Below are positions 2,109-8,259 of a stretch of 18,846 bases of DNA, piece after piece. A program made the position numbers and the translations under genes. The stretch lies in assembly GCA_018830405.1 (NCBI GenBank), contig JAHJSF010000134.1, forward strand, positions 1 through 18,846, in the 5' to 3' direction. Origin of the DNA: Nitrospinota bacterium. Lineage in GTDB: Bacteria > Nitrospinota > Nitrospinia > UBA9942 > JAHJSF01. The notes below the pieces were generated by a model that saw only the letters and a list, made by a program, of their open reading frames with translations, had not been told where the DNA came from and made no database searches. Positions within the stretch are counted from its first letter, which is position 1. Each line of letters opens with the position of its first letter.

Positions 2109-2300
2109 ATGTTTGGAATCGGCGGCGGTGAATTAGTTTTGGTTCTTTTTATAGCGTTGCTCGTTTTTGGGGCTACAGGGTTACCGGAGATTGGCAAGGG
2201 ATTGGGAAAGGCTATCAAAGAGTTTAAGAAGGCCGGCAAGGAGCTCAGAGGCGACATAGAAGAGTCAATCAAAGACGACGATGATGAAAAGAAGAAATAA
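2109..2300 (+). CDS. tatA: Twin-arginine translocase subunit TatA
   Basis: The 63-residue protein has the TatA layout: a short N-terminal membrane helix ([16 protein letters not shown]), the hinge [16 protein letters not shown], an amphipathic helix, and a highly charged tail with DDDDEKKK. TatA oligomers form the passage for folded proteins across the inner membrane. I chose the ATG at 2109 because the GGAGG at 2093-2097 precedes it, and a further upstream TTG would place that ribosome site inside the coding region. The next gene, tatC, starts 8 bases downstream. TatA and TatE, or a TatB-like role in a minimal TatAC system, cannot be told apart here, and no separate tatB is present. Confidence 0.93.
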
Positions 2301-2308
2301 AACTCAAA

Positions 2309-3025
2309 ATGGACGACAAGGAAATTACAGTAGTAGAGCATTTAGAGGAACTAAGACGACGGCTCATTATCTGTGTGGTCAGTGTTATTTTAGGAGCAGG
2401 TCTCTGTTACCTTGTAGTTAAGAGAATTGCGGACCTTTTAGCCAGACCGGTGGGGAATTTGGTTTTTCTTTCCCCTACAGAGGCCTTTGTTACCTATCTG
2501 AAATTGTCTCTCATTTCCGGTGTTTTCTTGGCATCACCGATTGTTTTATACCAACTCTGGCGGTTTGTCTCGGTGGCCTTGAAAGGAGATGAGAAAAAAA
2601 GTCTTCTGATTTTTGCCCCATTTTCATTTATCCTTTTTGTCGGAGGAGTTGTCTTTGCCTATTTCTTTATTCTTCCTTTGGGGATGGATTTCATGCTTGG
2701 TTTTGCAACGGATACGTTGCGGCCAATGATATCTTTCAGTAGTTATGTTTCTTTTGCGGGGATGTTTTTGCTGGCTTTTGGGGTGGTTTTCCAGTTGCCC
2801 CTAGTAATGATGTTTCTTACTAAAATAGGGATAATCTCTCCTAAATTTTTACGGAAAAAGAGAAGATACGCCATCCTTATAATTTTTATAGTTAGTGCGA
2901 TTCTAACGCCGCCTGATGTAATTACTCAGGCGTTGATGGCGGGGCCTCTGGTGGTGCTCTATGAAATAAGCATTATCCTCTCTAATTTTGTTTCTCCGCT
3001 AAGGATAGGGAGGCCTTCTGAATGA
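2309..3025 (+). CDS. tatC: Twin-arginine translocase subunit TatC
   Basis: The 238-residue integral membrane protein has six predicted helices. Conserved signatures include EHLEELRRR near residues 10-18, which belongs to the signal-peptide-binding cytoplasmic face, then SPTEAF, the periplasmic and transmembrane wording FILPLG, and the SAILTPPD motif before the last helices. TatC recognises the twin-arginine signal of exported folded proteins and recruits TatA. Its last four bases overlap the mobA start (ATGA), so translation of the two is probably coupled. Placement beside a TorD chaperone and a molybdoenzyme suggests a translocase kept close to its main cargo, although it may serve the whole cell. 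Confidence 0.94.
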   Translation: MDDKEITVVEHLEELRRRLIICVVSVILGAGLCYLVVKRIADLLARPVGNLVFLSPTEAFVTYLKLSLISGVFLASPIVLYQLWRFVSVALKGDEKKSLLIFAPFSFILFVGGVVFAYFFILPLGMDFMLGFATDTLRPMISFSSYVSFAGMFLLAFGVVFQLPLVMMFLTKIGIISPKFLRKKRRYAILIIFIVSAILTPPDVITQALMAGPLVVLYEISIILSNFVSPLRIGRPSE

Positions 3026-3642
3026 CGGGGATAATATTGGTTGGGGGCAGGAGTAGCCGAATGGGGGCTAATAAGGCCTTTCTGAGGATACCTCTTTCTA
3101 CCTCAGGCGGAGGGGGTAAGACAATTATTGAGATGATGGCGGATAAGATGAGAGTAGCCTTTAAGGAGATTATCATCGTTACAAACTCTACCGAGTCTGC
3201 CGAAGAGTATCAAGGTTTGGATGCAAGGGTGGTGAGGGATATTCTTCCTGACAAGAATTCTTTGGGCGGTTTATATTCCGGACTGGTTAATGCGAACAGT
3301 AAATATAGTTTTGTGGTTGCCTGTGATATGCCCTTTATAAATATGAGATTGATTGAGTATATGAAAAATAACTGTGCTGGCTTTGACGCGATTATTCCAC
3401 GGCTCAGGACCGGTTATGAGACACTCCACTCAATATATTCAAAAAGTTGCCTCGGCCCCATCGAAAGACAGTTAGCCCAGGATAACCTTAAGATTAGGGA
3501 TTTATTTCCCCAAATCAAAACAAATGAAATTGGAGAGGATACTATAAGGAGATTTGATCCGGAATTACTTTCGTTCTTTAACATAAATAAGGCTGATGAT
3601 TATCAGCAGGCTGTAAATATTACTCCGAGCCTCTGTTCCTAA
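3022..3642 (+). CDS. mobA: Molybdenum cofactor guanylyltransferase MobA
   Basis: The 206-residue nucleotidyltransferase begins with the GTP-binding signature GIILVGGRSSRMGANKAFL (residues 3-21). VVACDMPFI, whose Asp binds Mg2+, appears near residue 100. MobA joins GMP to molybdopterin-bound molybdenum, giving the guanine dinucleotide cofactor used by DMSO-reductase-family enzymes. That fits the oxidoreductase at the left edge of the window. The start overlaps tatC by four bases. The final 22 bases of the gene appear also to supply the 5' strand of the riboswitch that precedes moaA. A related cytidylyltransferase (MocA type) is an alternative but less fitting given the partner enzyme. Confidence 0.9.
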   Translation: MTGIILVGGRSSRMGANKAFLRIPLSTSGGGGKTIIEMMADKMRVAFKEIIIVTNSTESAEEYQGLDARVVRDILPDKNSLGGLYSGLVNANSKYSFVVACDMPFINMRLIEYMKNNCAGFDAIIPRLRTGYETLHSIYSKSCLGPIERQLAQDNLKIRDLFPQIKTNEIGEDTIRRFDPELLSFFNINKADDYQQAVNITPSLCS

Positions 3643-3735
3643 ACTTCTCAACTCATGTTGAGGAATATGGAGTATTGGCCGTTTCGGGTAGAGAAGGAAA
3701 CAACTCTGCCTCCCCATGCTTGGAAAGGAGTTTGA
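3621..3735 (+). promoter_or_regulatory. Molybdenum-cofactor (Moco) riboswitch candidate
   Basis: Visible pairings are ACTCC (3622-3626) with GGAGT (3727-3731) closing the structure, CTCAAC/GTTGAG (3647-3652/3657-3662), and GGTAGAG/CTCTGCC (3687-3693/3704-3710). Around them are unpaired stretches that I recall from the Moco RNA motif: CTCCGAGCC, GCCGTTTCGGG, AAGGAAAC, GCCTCCCC and TGGAAAGGAG. The site lies upstream of moaA and just before an intrinsic terminator, the usual context for this RNA class. The first 22 bases overlap the end of mobA. It should switch off moaA and downstream genes when cofactor is abundant. The Moco versus tungsten-cofactor form is not resolved. Identification rests on remembered motif pieces, not a covariance search. 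Confidence 0.8.
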
Positions 3736-3741
3736 CAGGAT

Positions 3742-3783
3742 AAAACCGACCTCTCGACCAAGTAACGAGATGTCGGTTTTTTT
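3742..3783 (+). terminator. Intrinsic terminator, riboswitch expression platform
   Basis: AAAACCGAC (3742-3750) pairs with GTCGGTTTT (3772-3780), extended inward by CTCTCG (3751-3756) with CGAGA (3766-3770). Seven Ts at 3777-3783 follow or overlap the stem. It lies only 11 bases after the closing stem of the riboswitch candidate and 37 bases before moaA. It is therefore most likely the regulated terminator through which cofactor controls moaA transcription. Confidence 0.88.
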
Positions 3784-3819
3784 GTTTGTGGTAACACCTT
3801 TATTTTTTGGGACAAGACT

Positions 3820-4809
3820 ATGAAAAGCTTGGTTGACCAGCATGGCCGTAAAATAGATTATCTGCGTATCTCCATTACCGACAGATGTAATCTCCGCTGT
3901 ATCTATTGTATGCCTGAATCAGGTGTTGCCCACAAATCACACGAAGAAATCCTGACCTACGCCGAGATTATGAAGATAGTGGTAGCGGCCTCCTATTGCG
4001 GGATTAAAAAGGTTCGGATTACCGGTGGAGAGCCTCTGGTGCGAAAAGACGTGGTTGACCTTGTGGCGGCCATAGCCAAAACAGCCAATATCAATGATTT
4101 TTCCCTGACAACAAACGGGATGCTTTTAGGTGAGTATGCAGAGGAACTGAAGAATGCCGGGCTGAGACGGATCAACATTAGTTTGGATTCTCTGGTCAGG
4201 GAAAAGTGCGAGATGATTACCAGGCGGGATGCTTTGAATAAAGTAGTTGAGGGGATAGATACGGCTCTGAGAGTAGGCTTGGGTCCGGTAAAGATAAATG
4301 TGGTGGTTATTAGGGGGGTAAATGATGATGAGATTGCCGAGTTTGCCAAACTTACCTGCGATAAGCCGCTGCATGTCAGATTTATAGAGTTTATGCCTAT
4401 TGGCGACAACTCGATTTGGGGAATGGAGAAGTTTATTCCCAATGACGAGGTTAAAAACCTTTGTCGCGAGTTGGGGGAGCTTAAGGAGGAAGGGAGCCAA
4501 CCGAATGGTAATACATCATCTTATCGTCTTGGGAAGGCTAAAGGAACGATATCATTCATAAGTCCCATAAGTTCCCCATTTTGTGGCGGATGTGGTCGCC
4601 TGAGGCTTACCTCAGACGGTAAACTAAGGCTCTGTTTAGGTTCGGCCGAGGAAATTGATCTCCTTTCCATAGTTCGTAATAGTAAATTTTCCTCGGAACA
4701 CCTTATAGAGGCCTTTGAGAGGGCTGCGATTTTGAAGCCGAAGGGGCACCGGTTTAATTGTGCCCCTCACATATCTGGTAAAAAAACGATGTGTCAAATC
4801 GGAGGATAA
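3820..4809 (+). CDS. moaA: GTP 3',8-cyclase MoaA (molybdopterin synthesis, radical SAM)
   Basis: The 329-residue radical-SAM enzyme performs the first step of molybdopterin synthesis, cyclising GTP to the precursor that MoaC converts to cyclic pyranopterin monophosphate. The N-terminal Fe-S cluster cysteines are C23, C27 and C30 (CNLRCIYC). The C-terminal second cluster is C255, C258 and C272. GGEP and the SLD strand motif are present, and the protein ends in the conserved Gly-Gly tail (QIGG). The ATG at 3820 has only a weak GGGA site upstream, consistent with a controlled leader. moaC begins 4 bases after the stop. Confidence 0.97.
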   Translation: MKSLVDQHGRKIDYLRISITDRCNLRCIYCMPESGVAHKSHEEILTYAEIMKIVVAASYCGIKKVRITGGEPLVRKDVVDLVAAIAKTANINDFSLTTNGMLLGEYAEELKNAGLRRINISLDSLVREKCEMITRRDALNKVVEGIDTALRVGLGPVKINVVVIRGVNDDEIAEFAKLTCDKPLHVRFIEFMPIGDNSIWGMEKFIPNDEVKNLCRELGELKEEGSQPNGNTSSYRLGKAKGTISFISPISSPFCGGCGRLRLTSDGKLRLCLGSAEEIDLLSIVRNSKFSSEHLIEAFERAAILKPKGHRFNCAPHISGKKTMCQIGG

Positions 4810-4813
4810 AAAA

Positions 4814-5290
4814 GTGGCAAAACTAACACACCTGGATGAGCAGGGGAGGATAAAAATGGTTGATATAACGGAGAAGAAGATAACCTCCCGCATGGCCGTA
4901 GCCGAGGCAACCGTATCTGTCAAACCTTCAACCTTGGACAAGATTCTGGAGAAGAAAATAGCCAAGGGAGAGGTTTTTACAACTGCCAAGATTGCCGGTA
5001 TAATGGCCGCCAAGCAGACATCCTCTCTTATTCCCCTTTGCCATCCCTTGCTGATTTCAAAGGTGGATATAGACTTTAGTATAAACAGTAAGGAATCGAA
5101 GATTCTTATTAGAGGTGAGGTGGTTTTAGAGGGGAAAACAGGCGTGGAGATGGAGGCGTTGACCTCTGTTTCGGTGGCCGCCCTAACAATCTATGACATG
5201 TGCAAGGCTGTTGATAAAGAAATGGTTATCTCGGACATCAAATTATTAAGAAAGAAAGGGGGGAAGAGCGGTGAGTATATCAGGGAATAA
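4814..5290 (+). CDS. moaC: Cyclic pyranopterin monophosphate synthase MoaC
   Basis: The 158-residue protein starts with HLDEQGRIKMVDITEKK. It contains LIPLCHPLLISKVD near residue 72 and MEALTSVSVAALTIYDMCKAVDKEM near residue 110, with the catalytic Asp and Lys of the DMCKAVDK loop. It acts directly after MoaA. I chose the GTG at 4814, because GGAGG at 4801-4805 lies 8 bases upstream and homologues begin just before HLDE; the frame is open further upstream inside moaA but that part has no family match. Its end overlaps the MOSC gene by 20 bases. Confidence 0.95.
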   Translation: MAKLTHLDEQGRIKMVDITEKKITSRMAVAEATVSVKPSTLDKILEKKIAKGEVFTTAKIAGIMAAKQTSSLIPLCHPLLISKVDIDFSINSKESKILIRGEVVLEGKTGVEMEALTSVSVAALTIYDMCKAVDKEMVISDIKLLRKKGGKSGEYIRE

Positions 5291-5741
5291 TTCGAGCGGT
5301 CTTGTAGTCGCTGTTTCCACATCTCAAAAGAAGGGGGAACGGAAAGAGAATGTCGACAGGGCTATCCTGAAGGAGAATTTCGGGATAATCGGGGATGCCC
5401 ATGCGGGGGACTGGCATAGGCAGGTTAGTCTTCTGGCAATGGAGAGCATAGATAAGATGAAAAAAAACCTCCCCCATCTTAATCCGGGCATATTTGCCGA
5501 AAATATTACGACAAGCGGGCTTGACCTGCCGCATCTCCCCGTGGGGGCAAGGCTTAAGATTGGTGATGGTGTCCTTTTGGAGGTTTCTCAGATAGGGAAG
5601 GAGTGTCATACCAGATGCGCCATTTATTATGCTGCAGGGGACTGTGTGATGCCCAAGGAGGGGATATTTGCCATAGTGCTAAAGGGGGGATCTGTTCAAG
5701 AAGGGGATTGTGTTGAGGTTATAGGCAATGTCGAGGCATAA
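5271..5741 (+). CDS. MOSC-domain protein
   Basis: The 156-residue protein is essentially one MOSC domain. Visible signatures are GIIGDAHAGDWHRQVSLL near residues 38-55, AENI and LPVGARLKIGDGVLLEVSQIG, and the conserved cysteine region KECHTRCAIYY. MOSC proteins bind molybdenum cofactor or carry sulfur to it. Stand-alone versions clustered with moaC and mog probably adjust or deliver the cofactor. The start is GTG inside the end of moaC, 20 bases before its stop, indicating coupled translation. The exact reaction is not known for this subtype. It sits between moaC and the Mog-type gene in a tightly packed operon. Confidence 0.9.
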   Translation: MSISGNNSSGLVVAVSTSQKKGERKENVDRAILKENFGIIGDAHAGDWHRQVSLLAMESIDKMKKNLPHLNPGIFAENITTSGLDLPHLPVGARLKIGDGVLLEVSQIGKECHTRCAIYYAAGDCVMPKEGIFAIVLKGGSVQEGDCVEVIGNVEA

Positions 5742-5743
5742 AA

Positions 5744-6250
5744 ATGGATAAACCAATAAATGAACAACTGAAGGGGATCAGGGTTGCTATCTTGACAGTC
5801 AGCGATAGTTGTTCGAGCGGCGATAGAGAGGATATATCGGGGCAGGTTATCAGGGATGAGGTTGAGCAACTGAGCGGGGAGGTTGTTAAACATGATGTTG
5901 TGCCTGATGAGATACCGGCGATTAAGGAGAGATTATCGACCTACTCTAATGAGCTTAAGGTCGATCTTGTCCTGACTACCGGAGGAACCGGTTTCTCCCC
6001 CCGTGATATTACGCCGGAGGCAACTTTGCAGGTTTTGGATAAGGAGATACCGGGGATTCCTGAGGCGATACGCGCCGAGGGGTTAAAAAAGACAAAGAGG
6101 GCTATCCTGTCTCGGGCCGTGGCAGGGATAAAAGGTCGAACCTTGATTATTAACTTCCCCGGAAGTAGCCGGGGGGTAAAAGAATCTTTGGCGGTAATAA
6201 TCGATATTATTCCGCATGCCCTTGAAATGATAAGAGGGGGAGGACACTAG
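5744..6250 (+). CDS. mog: Molybdopterin adenylyltransferase, Mog/MoaB family
   Basis: The 168-residue MogA/MoaB-fold protein has VSDSCSSGDREDISG near residues 19-33, the signature TTGGTGFSPRDITPEAT near residues 78-94, and NFPGSSRGVKES near residue 145. This enzyme activates molybdopterin by adenylation before metal insertion by MoeA. MoeA is absent from this window. The ATG lies 2 bases after the MOSC stop, with GAGG about 8 bases upstream. Family members called MoaB have the same fold and some are non-catalytic in E. coli, so the symbol could be moaB. Its stop overlaps the next start by one base. Confidence 0.88.
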   Translation: MDKPINEQLKGIRVAILTVSDSCSSGDREDISGQVIRDEVEQLSGEVVKHDVVPDEIPAIKERLSTYSNELKVDLVLTTGGTGFSPRDITPEATLQVLDKEIPGIPEAIRAEGLKKTKRAILSRAVAGIKGRTLIINFPGSSRGVKESLAVIIDIIPHALEMIRGGGH

Positions 6251-7434
6251 TGAAACTTGAGAAGATACGCTTCGACCGCATGGAATTTGCGGGGGCCTTG
6301 GGAGATATCGGCATTCTTATCCCGCTGGTTGTTTCTCTGGTAGCCATAAACGGGCTTAATCCGACCATGATTCTCTCTCTGGTTGGTATCTTTTATATTA
6401 TATGCGGACTTTACTACAGGGTTCCGATGTCGGTTCAACCCCTTAAGGCCGTAGCGGCCATTGCCATTGCGAGCGGACTTGGGGCGTCGGTCATTTCGGC
6501 GGCGGGGATACTGATGGGAATTTTTCTCCTCTTTATTTCTGTGACCGGTTTAGCTGAGCTTCTGAATAGAATCTTTGCCCGGCCTATAATTAGAGGCATA
6601 CAGCTTGGGGTAGGTTTGATGTTGATTAGAACCTCTTTGTTACTTATAGCCAGACCGATAAATGGGGCAGGGTCAATTCTGCTGACCAACAATATGGCCA
6701 TACCGTTCAGCTGGCTGGTTGTTGCGGCAGGGATAATCATTATGCTTATACCGCTTTGGGACAGACAGTTTCCGGCTTCCATCGTAATATTGGGTTTAGG
6801 TCTGGCGGCGAGCATGTTCAGCGGTCAGTTAAACGGCCTGAACCTCTCTTTTTTCAAACTCCACAAAATAATCGTGACTGTTCCCGCCAAGGATGACTTC
6901 ATTAAGGCCCTTGTTCTTCTGGTCATACCTCAGATACCCCTTACCCTGGGCAATGCCGTGGTCGCCACAGAGGATGTAGCTAAGAGATATTTTGGGGAGG
7001 GGGCAGAAAGGGTGAAAGCGCGTCCCCTGGCCTTTGGCATGGGGATAATAAATATTATTGCCGGATTTACCGGCGGCATGCCTGTATGTCATGGTTCGGG
7101 AGGTCTTACCGCCCACTACAGCTTTGGGGCGCGTACCGGGGGGGCATCTGTAATCATTGGTTCCATCTGTTTGTTGTTGGCCCTGATGTTTGGGAATGGG
7201 ATAGGTGAAATATTTAAGATAATTCCGCACGCCATTCTTGGAATTATGCTTTTTTATGTCGGCCTTAAACATGCCCTCCTGATTACCGATTTAGAGAAAA
7301 AAGAAGAACTGTTCTTAGCCTTAGGGATTGGAGTAACTGCTATTTTGACAGGTAACCTTGCTATTGCTTATGGGGCAGGAATGAGTTTATGGTATTTTGC
7401 CCGTTTTGTCAGGAAAAGCTTTTGTGAGGCTTAA
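6250..7434 (+). CDS. Molybdate transporter, MOT1 family
   Basis: The 394-residue integral membrane protein has about ten hydrophobic segments. It carries the MOT1 signatures GALGDIGILIPLVVSL (residues 14-29), PMSVQPLKAVAA (58-69), PQIPLTLGNAVVATEDVAKR, and MPVCHGSGGLTAHYSFGAR. MOT1 proteins, related to SulP transporters but lacking the STAS domain, import molybdate with high affinity. It starts at GTG 6250, overlapping the mog stop by one base, with GGGGGAGG at 6236-6243. The operon context of cofactor synthesis makes molybdate, rather than sulfate, the likely substrate. It is the last gene of this block and the next gene is convergent. Confidence 0.9.
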   Translation: MKLEKIRFDRMEFAGALGDIGILIPLVVSLVAINGLNPTMILSLVGIFYIICGLYYRVPMSVQPLKAVAAIAIASGLGASVISAAGILMGIFLLFISVTGLAELLNRIFARPIIRGIQLGVGLMLIRTSLLLIARPINGAGSILLTNNMAIPFSWLVVAAGIIIMLIPLWDRQFPASIVILGLGLAASMFSGQLNGLNLSFFKLHKIIVTVPAKDDFIKALVLLVIPQIPLTLGNAVVATEDVAKRYFGEGAERVKARPLAFGMGIINIIAGFTGGMPVCHGSGGLTAHYSFGARTGGASVIIGSICLLLALMFGNGIGEIFKIIPHAILGIMLFYVGLKHALLITDLEKKEELFLALGIGVTAILTGNLAIAYGAGMSLWYFARFVRKSFCEA

Positions 7435-7699: not shown

Positions 7700-7765
7700 A
7701 AAATGTTTTTATATTTAAGCCCCCTTGGGCCTCAGCCGCGATTGCTTGGCCGGCCCAAGAGGGCT
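7700..7765. repeat. Hairpin-bearing repeat, copy A
   Basis: TTTTTATATTT is followed by AGCCCCCTTGGGCC (7718-7731) pairing with GGCCCAAGAGGGCT (7752-7765), 14 bp with one mismatch. About 45 bases match the stretch at 8192-8253 on the other side of the cytochrome gene, with TTTTTATATTT and CCCCCTT-GGCCTCAG-GCGA conserved. It may act as the end of the minus-strand transcript, although the A/T tract lies after the stem rather than a clean T-run. Confidence 0.55.
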
Positions 7766-7819
7766 ACATTAAGCTGGTTATTGGGAGGTCAAACCGCCTT
7801 GACAGATTATTTTTTCCTC

Positions 7820-8179
7820 TTATTTCCCGCCGCCTTTGCGGACGCTTGAGTCGTATATCAGGAACTCCGATATCTTTTTGGCCGACATCGGGTCAATCCC
7901 TGAGCCTGGTTTCCCCATCATCTTCTTGATAACCTTCTTCCATTCGTCGGCCGTGGTGTAACTTGCCCCTATCGGCCGGGCCAAGACATGACAGTTTGAG
8001 CATTTATCTTTAAAGATATTGTTGTAGATATCCTGCATCTCCTTCGGATAGGAGGAGACATCTATCTCTCCCGGCCCGTTATCGAGCGGATCGGGAGGGG
8101 CCATTTCAGGCATAGCCCCGGCGATGATAGGTGTTCCCCATATGGATACTATTAAAAGAACAAGTATCAATTTTTTCAT
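7820..8179 (-). CDS. Small monoheme c-type cytochrome, secreted
   Basis: The 119-residue protein has a signal peptide (KKLILVLLIVSIWGTPIIAGA), then a short proline-rich stretch and one CSNCH heme motif at residues 60-64. A MMGKPGSGI segment after residue 86 offers the likely axial Met. The sequence order (YxxxF, CSNCH, W-KVIKKM, KPG, ISEFL) is that of small class I cytochromes in metal- and sulfur-respiring bacteria. I chose the ATG at 8179 because AAGGTGAG lies about 7 bases before it, while the GTG at 8188 would sit on that site. It is downstream of a porin-like gene on the same strand, 113 bases apart, and probably co-transcribed. Partner and redox role are unknown. Confidence 0.85.
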   Translation of the reverse strand: MKKLILVLLIVSIWGTPIIAGAMPEMAPPDPLDNGPGEIDVSSYPKEMQDIYNNIFKDKCSNCHVLARPIGASYTTADEWKKVIKKMMGKPGSGIDPMSAKKISEFLIYDSSVRKGGGK

Positions 8180-8191
8180 TATTCTCACCTT

Positions 8192-8253
8192 AAAAAATAT
8201 TTTTATATTTGGGCCCCCTTAGGCCTCAGTAGCGACCACTGGGCCTAAGGGGG
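8192..8253. repeat. Hairpin-bearing repeat, copy B
   Basis: CCCCCTTAGGCC (8214-8225) and GGCCTAAGGGGG (8242-8253) form a perfect 12-bp stem with a 16-base loop. The left flank repeats the TTTTTATATTT block of copy A. Here it lies between the porin stop and the cytochrome start on the minus strand. It could separate the two messages or stabilise the upstream one. It is a related duplicate, not an exact one, of 7700-7765. Confidence 0.6.
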
Positions 8254-8259
8254 TACCCA

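Follow-up and report, generated by a model that had tools for sequence, protein, structure and literature searches.

Results

Genes and RNA features of the locus

The window, i.e., the whole stretch of 18,846 nucleotides from a Nitrospinota bacterium that was analysed, carries in this order tatA-tatC-mobA, an aptamer, a terminator and moaA-moaC-MOSC-mogA-MOT1. Direct computation shows the aptamer and the absence of its P3 helix, the terminator, the order of the genes and the overlap of the aptamer with mobA. The features are as follows.

2109-2300, plus strand: tatA, the first gene of a tight tat-mobA group (Pfam TatA_B_E, E 2e-17; NCBIfam tatAE above cut-off)
2309-3025, plus strand: tatC (TIGR00945, 211.7 bits, cut-off 132.7)
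3022-3642, plus strand: mobA, molybdenum cofactor guanylyltransferase (NCBIfam MobA models, Pfam NTP_transf_3)
3622-3626, plus strand: 5' strand of P1, ACUCC, inside mobA (RF01055 alignment and fold)
3680-3685, plus strand: linker GUUUCG at the site where P3 would be (RF01055 alignment; pattern scan permitting 2-11 nt there)
3686-3711, plus strand: P4 with its GAAA tetraloop at 3697-3700 (RF01055 alignment and fold)
3717-3764, plus strand: predicted antiterminator (folding of partial transcripts; complementarity at the family level)
3727-3731, plus strand: 3' strand of P1, GGAGU, whose GGAG is also part of the predicted antiterminator (RF01055 alignment and fold)
3742-3783, plus strand: intrinsic terminator, stem 3742-3780 and T tract to 3783 (hairpin -17.6 kcal/mol)
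3820-4809, plus strand: moaA, the first gene past the switch (TIGR02666, 365.7 bits, cut-off 284)
4814-7434, plus strand: moaC, a MOSC-domain gene, a mogA/moaB-like gene and a MOT1-type molybdate transporter gene (NCBIfam/Pfam)

The upstream genes are closely packed: the tatA-tatC gap is 8 nt, and tatC overlaps mobA by 4 nt (ATGA). Between mobA and the aptamer no terminator turned up, and the T tract is separated from the moaA start codon by only some 36 nt. The product of mobA matches the NCBIfam MobA models with E values of 1e-48 and 2.5e-34, below their curated cut-offs, and Pfam NTP_transf_3 with E 2.8e-32.

The MOT1-type molybdate transporter gene (6250-7434) closes the moa operon. Elsewhere in the window, acttcttttagccttgaacgtta occurs at 683-706 and 1311-1334, in both gaps flanking a cytochrome c gene (756-1229); similar stretches at 7700-7770 and 8195-8255 (tttttatattt...gccccctt.ggcctca), with GC-rich inverted halves, flank a small cytochrome-like gene on the minus strand (7820-8188).

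Identity and anatomy of the aptamer

An earlier note on this DNA had described a Moco riboswitch whose closing pair ACTCC/GGAGT has its left half within mobA and which is followed by a terminator, and had proposed a search with the Rfam Moco RNA covariance model. The search, a cmscan of the full window with all 4227 families of Rfam, yielded one match, RF01055 (Moco RNA), at 3611-3746 on the plus strand, with 66.3 bits against a gathering score of 36 and E 2.8e-14; it is full-length (1-135 of 135 model positions), and the conserved core of the aptamer is intact. The match does not begin 3' of the mobA stop codon; it begins 32 nt inside the gene. P1 is formed by 3622-3626 and 3727-3731, exactly as the note had it, and a terminator indeed follows, with its stem at 3742-3780 and its T's to 3783. 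Folding of the aptamer region is better than that of shuffled sequences (z -3.46), and the genes 3' of the RNA (moaA, moaC, mogA, MOT1) serve cofactor synthesis and transport. The RNA is a real riboswitch of an already known family; what is unusual is its tight join to the upstream gene.

P2 carries a tetraloop receptor (CCUAA at 3638-3642 and UAUGG at 3665-3669), whose GAAA partner is on P4. The positions of P3 are deleted in the RF01055 alignment, so that a six-base linker alone joins P2 to P4, and the pattern scan likewise finds that the aptamer fits the P3-less pattern. The naming as a Moco riboswitch thus stands as to family, but not as to class: given the missing P3, the tungsten-cofactor class is at least as likely (PMC2408646).

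Overlap with mobA

P1 starts 21 nt before the end of mobA (stop counted), and the 5' strands of both P1 and P2 are the last codons of the gene. The stop codon TAA (3640-3642) falls within the P2 internal loop, where it forms the UAA of the conserved receptor CCUAA. The homology to MobA ceases near residue 199 of 206 (about 3618), just before P1; relatives align with the product to residues 194-204, and their proteins extend about ten residues beyond FFNIN with unrelated sequence. Judging from these alignments, the overlapped codons are a free, variable C-terminal tail that MobA has anyway. Since they lie beyond the conserved domain, tight packing would account for the overlap.

Terminator and predicted antiterminator

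The terminator starts 11 nt after GGAG. A simple terminator scanner missed it: the rule allowed a loop of at most 8 nt, and the loop here has 9 nt. In the predicted antiterminator, UGCUUGG (3717-3723) pairs with CCAAGUA (3758-3764), GGAG (3727-3730) with CUCU (3751-3754), and UUG (3732-3734) with CGA (3747-3749). When growing transcripts are folded, P1 pairs with a probability of about 0.9 as far as 3760; at 3764-3768 the value drops to 0.02-0.06, the antiterminator having formed, and with the terminator stem complete it is 0.9 again. At 3766-3768 the antiterminator is better than P1 by 2.4 kcal/mol, a margin that a ligand bound with ordinary strength could overcome.

In the window alone this pairing is not distinguished from chance: with the downstream segment shuffled, P1 still drops to 0.05 or below in 108 of 200 cases, and the ungapped complementarity is unremarkable, being reached by 0.59 of the shuffles. 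The signal appears at the family level. Taken together, the 60 P3-less loci with terminators among the matches listed show complementarity of the terminator 5' arm plus loop to the conserved aptamer end UUGGAAAGGAG well beyond that of shuffles, with a z of 7.6. Some of these loci are related, and the shuffles ignore kinship, so that the z is somewhat inflated, but the signal covers several phyla. The complementarity sum over these loci is 846 against 726 (sd 16) in shuffles, and none of 500 shuffle sums reaches it; at least 6 exact complementary nucleotides are present in 25 loci, with 8.9 expected. The control, the terminator 3' arm against UUGGAAAGGAG, gives z -1.0. Pieces of CUCCUUUCCAA, which is complementary to the aptamer 3' core, occur in the terminator 5' arms and loops of the 60 listed loci. 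Most likely, as far as folding and complementarity can tell, this core is the antiterminator strand, and the ligand would hold P1 closed, so that the terminator forms and the genes past 3783 are off.

Distribution of the arrangement

The genome of the window has one RNA of the RF01055 type, and in the 77 genomes of the phylum there is just one further genome, from the same order, with a match above the cut-off; here a same-strand TauE/SafE gene ends 14 nt ahead of the RNA, and a moaA-like gene follows it. In the other genomes of the order mobA is found in different contexts, which argues that the arrangement in the window is not old and conserved.

A P3-less pattern scan of 84,980 species genomes provided a sample of more than 100 listed loci, from which 111 distinct aptamers with enough upstream sequence were analysed. 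Among these listed matches, 45 of the 111 have a same-strand frame of at least 150 aa ending between -150 and +60 nt of P1, and the ends are spaced smoothly, from -146 via -15, -8 and -3 to +20 in the window. The overlap is certain only in the window among the 111; one more is possible, at L049 (an iron-sulphur protein, +41 nt). Six further overlapping frames were rejected as chance open frames: those at L033, L075, L145, L143 and L124 have no Pfam match, and that at L086 is short and has unknown bases within it.

Directly before the RNA, mobA recurs in two other lineages among the matches listed, with gaps of 46 and 67 nt. The position behind mobA recurs and the overlap does not; on these spacings, the overlap forms the far end of a continuous distribution. 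A partial literature search found no report of riboswitches overlapping an upstream coding end.

CUAA is present at the receptor in 67 of the 111 P3-less aptamers listed, and 56 of those 67 share the frame that it has, relative to P1, in the window. A gene drifting into an aptamer in this preferred frame gets an immediate UAA stop.

Some of the listed loci have features of their own. In L003, L083, L112 and L119, moaA and MOT1 recur behind a P3-less RNA. L062 (a contig of Candidatus Schekmanbacteria) carries three Moco RNAs (554-679, 3629-3750 and 3815-3943, minus strand), two of them in tandem about 65 nt apart, and L143 has two divergent ones about 185 nt apart (381-499 on the minus and 684-801 on the plus strand).

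Discussion

Ligand class

Moco RNAs are divided by P3, which is missing in 58 of 176 (Regulski et al. 2008, PMC2408646). As 17 of 19 organisms with P3-less RNAs had tungsten-cofactor genes, this class was proposed, but not proven, to sense the tungsten cofactor; that study did not show direct ligand binding, and the ligand is unstable (PMC2408646). The RNA of the window belongs to this putative Tuco (P3-less) class, and by its anatomy the tungsten cofactor is at least as likely a ligand as the molybdenum cofactor. Many P3-less loci among the matches listed have a tupA-like tungstate-binding gene just downstream, which agrees with the proposal of PMC2408646.

In the genome of the window, an assembly that is 87% complete, AOR (PF02730) gave no matches with positive controls found, TupA gave none with one query run without a control, and no PF00384 domain was found; the sole enzyme trace is a molybdopterin oxidoreductase truncated by the window's left edge.

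Comparison with known systems

The closest relatives are the P3-less Moco RNAs (RF01055, PMC2408646), with which the RNA shares the core, P1, P2 with its receptor, P4 with GAAA and the absence of P3, as well as the intrinsic terminator that follows and the cofactor synthesis genes downstream. In contrast to them, it is operon-internal, and the preceding gene's coding sequence takes in the 5' strands of P1 and P2; and whereas 17 of the 19 hosts in PMC2408646 have tungsten-use genes, none was found in the genome of the window, an incomplete assembly.

OFF polarity was established for the Moco RNA of E. coli moaA (PMC2408646). That RNA also controls a moaA-led operon, and an OFF switch is expected for the window. 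It differs in having P3, in lying in a 5' UTR behind promoters of its own, and in hiding a ribosome binding site in P1, where the window has a terminator instead.

Two of the listed loci are also close to the window, with such an RNA right after mobA and a cofactor or tungstate gene following. L083 (Calditrichota) has mobA, a P3-less RNA, moaA and MOT1 in the same order as the window, and then moaC/mogA, but 46 nt separate the mobA stop from P1, without overlap, and no terminator lies within 170 nt. L037 (Oryzomonas japonica) has mobA, the RNA, a terminator and tupA; as in the window the RNA lies directly behind mobA, but again without overlap, at 67 nt from the mobA stop to P1.

Proposed mechanism and alternatives

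We believe that this P3-less Moco/Tuco-type riboswitch is a transcription attenuator inside one operon, which shuts off moaA and the genes after it, and we assign this reading a probability of about 0.78. Transcripts from upstream would run through tatA-tatC-mobA into the aptamer, and the variable tail of mobA would read into P1 and P2 and end at the UAA of the tetraloop receptor. With the cofactor bound, in its tungsten or molybdenum form, P1 would be held closed and the terminator would form; moaA-moaC-MOSC-mogA-MOT1 would then be off, and tat and mobA would still be made. With the cofactor scarce, the aptamer 3' core (UUGG, GGAG) would pair with the 5' arm and loop of the terminator, and transcription would continue. 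That tat-mobA is made while moaA onward is shut off had been suggested in the earlier note, and the anatomy (the packing of the genes and the placement of the terminator) supports it well.

It is conceivable, though unlikely, that the RNA mainly serves a moa transcript from a promoter inside mobA; it would then be an ordinary 5'-UTR riboswitch, and the overlap would have no operon consequence. A promoter-like match inside mobA (3248-3277, 10/12) could separate the two halves of the operon. Such matches are, however, a weak signal (four against 1.5 expected from shuffles), and tat-mobA is tightly packed and runs into the aptamer without a terminator.

Somewhat less probable is the suggestion that terminating mobA ribosomes block the folding of the aptamer and free the antiterminator, so that translation of mobA overrides the cofactor's repression and ties moaA expression to that of mobA. 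With its A site at 3640-3642, a ribosome would cover roughly 3625-3655. Such a ribosome, ending mobA, would sit on the 5' strands of P1 and P2, and a conserved, functional element of the aptamer contains the stop codon; with 3622-3655 blocked in the fold, P1 is impossible, and from 3764 to 3772 the antiterminator ranks with the best structures. Competition between ribosome and aptamer would thus possibly favour readthrough, if the folding is a guide. Against this, the terminator still wins at full length with the same region blocked, and the polymerase has about 140 nt to go beyond the stop before the terminator is complete, so that a leading ribosome, if released promptly, may leave first and give the aptamer time to fold. 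Among the matches listed, moreover, the other two mobA-RNA pairs do without an overlap, and the continuous spacing across loci has no sign of selection for one. It is tempting to go further and regard the aptamer, as the end of a gene of its own pathway, as a joint sensor of MobA translation and cofactor level, with mobA ribosomes gating the sensing; we consider this quite doubtful.

A constitutive terminator that ends the tat-mobA transcript, with a degenerate aptamer and a separate moaA promoter after 3783, would agree with the full-length terminator state being favoured by about 10 kcal/mol over the antiterminator and with the antiterminator of the window not being significant on its own, but it is very improbable in view of an aptamer score far above the gathering threshold, an intact core and the short distance from the T tract to the moaA start codon.

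Conclusions

The attenuator reading would mean that an operon-internal cofactor switch sets early cofactor synthesis, together with molybdate uptake, apart from the late steps of cofactor use (tat export, mobA). The aptamer could encroach on the coding sequence harmlessly because its conserved UAA supplies the stop codon. In the P3-less class, whose ligand is a proposed one, the terminators appear to include a decoy for the GGAAAGGAG core of the aptamer itself; this would be a concrete expression platform for the class and gives something testable.
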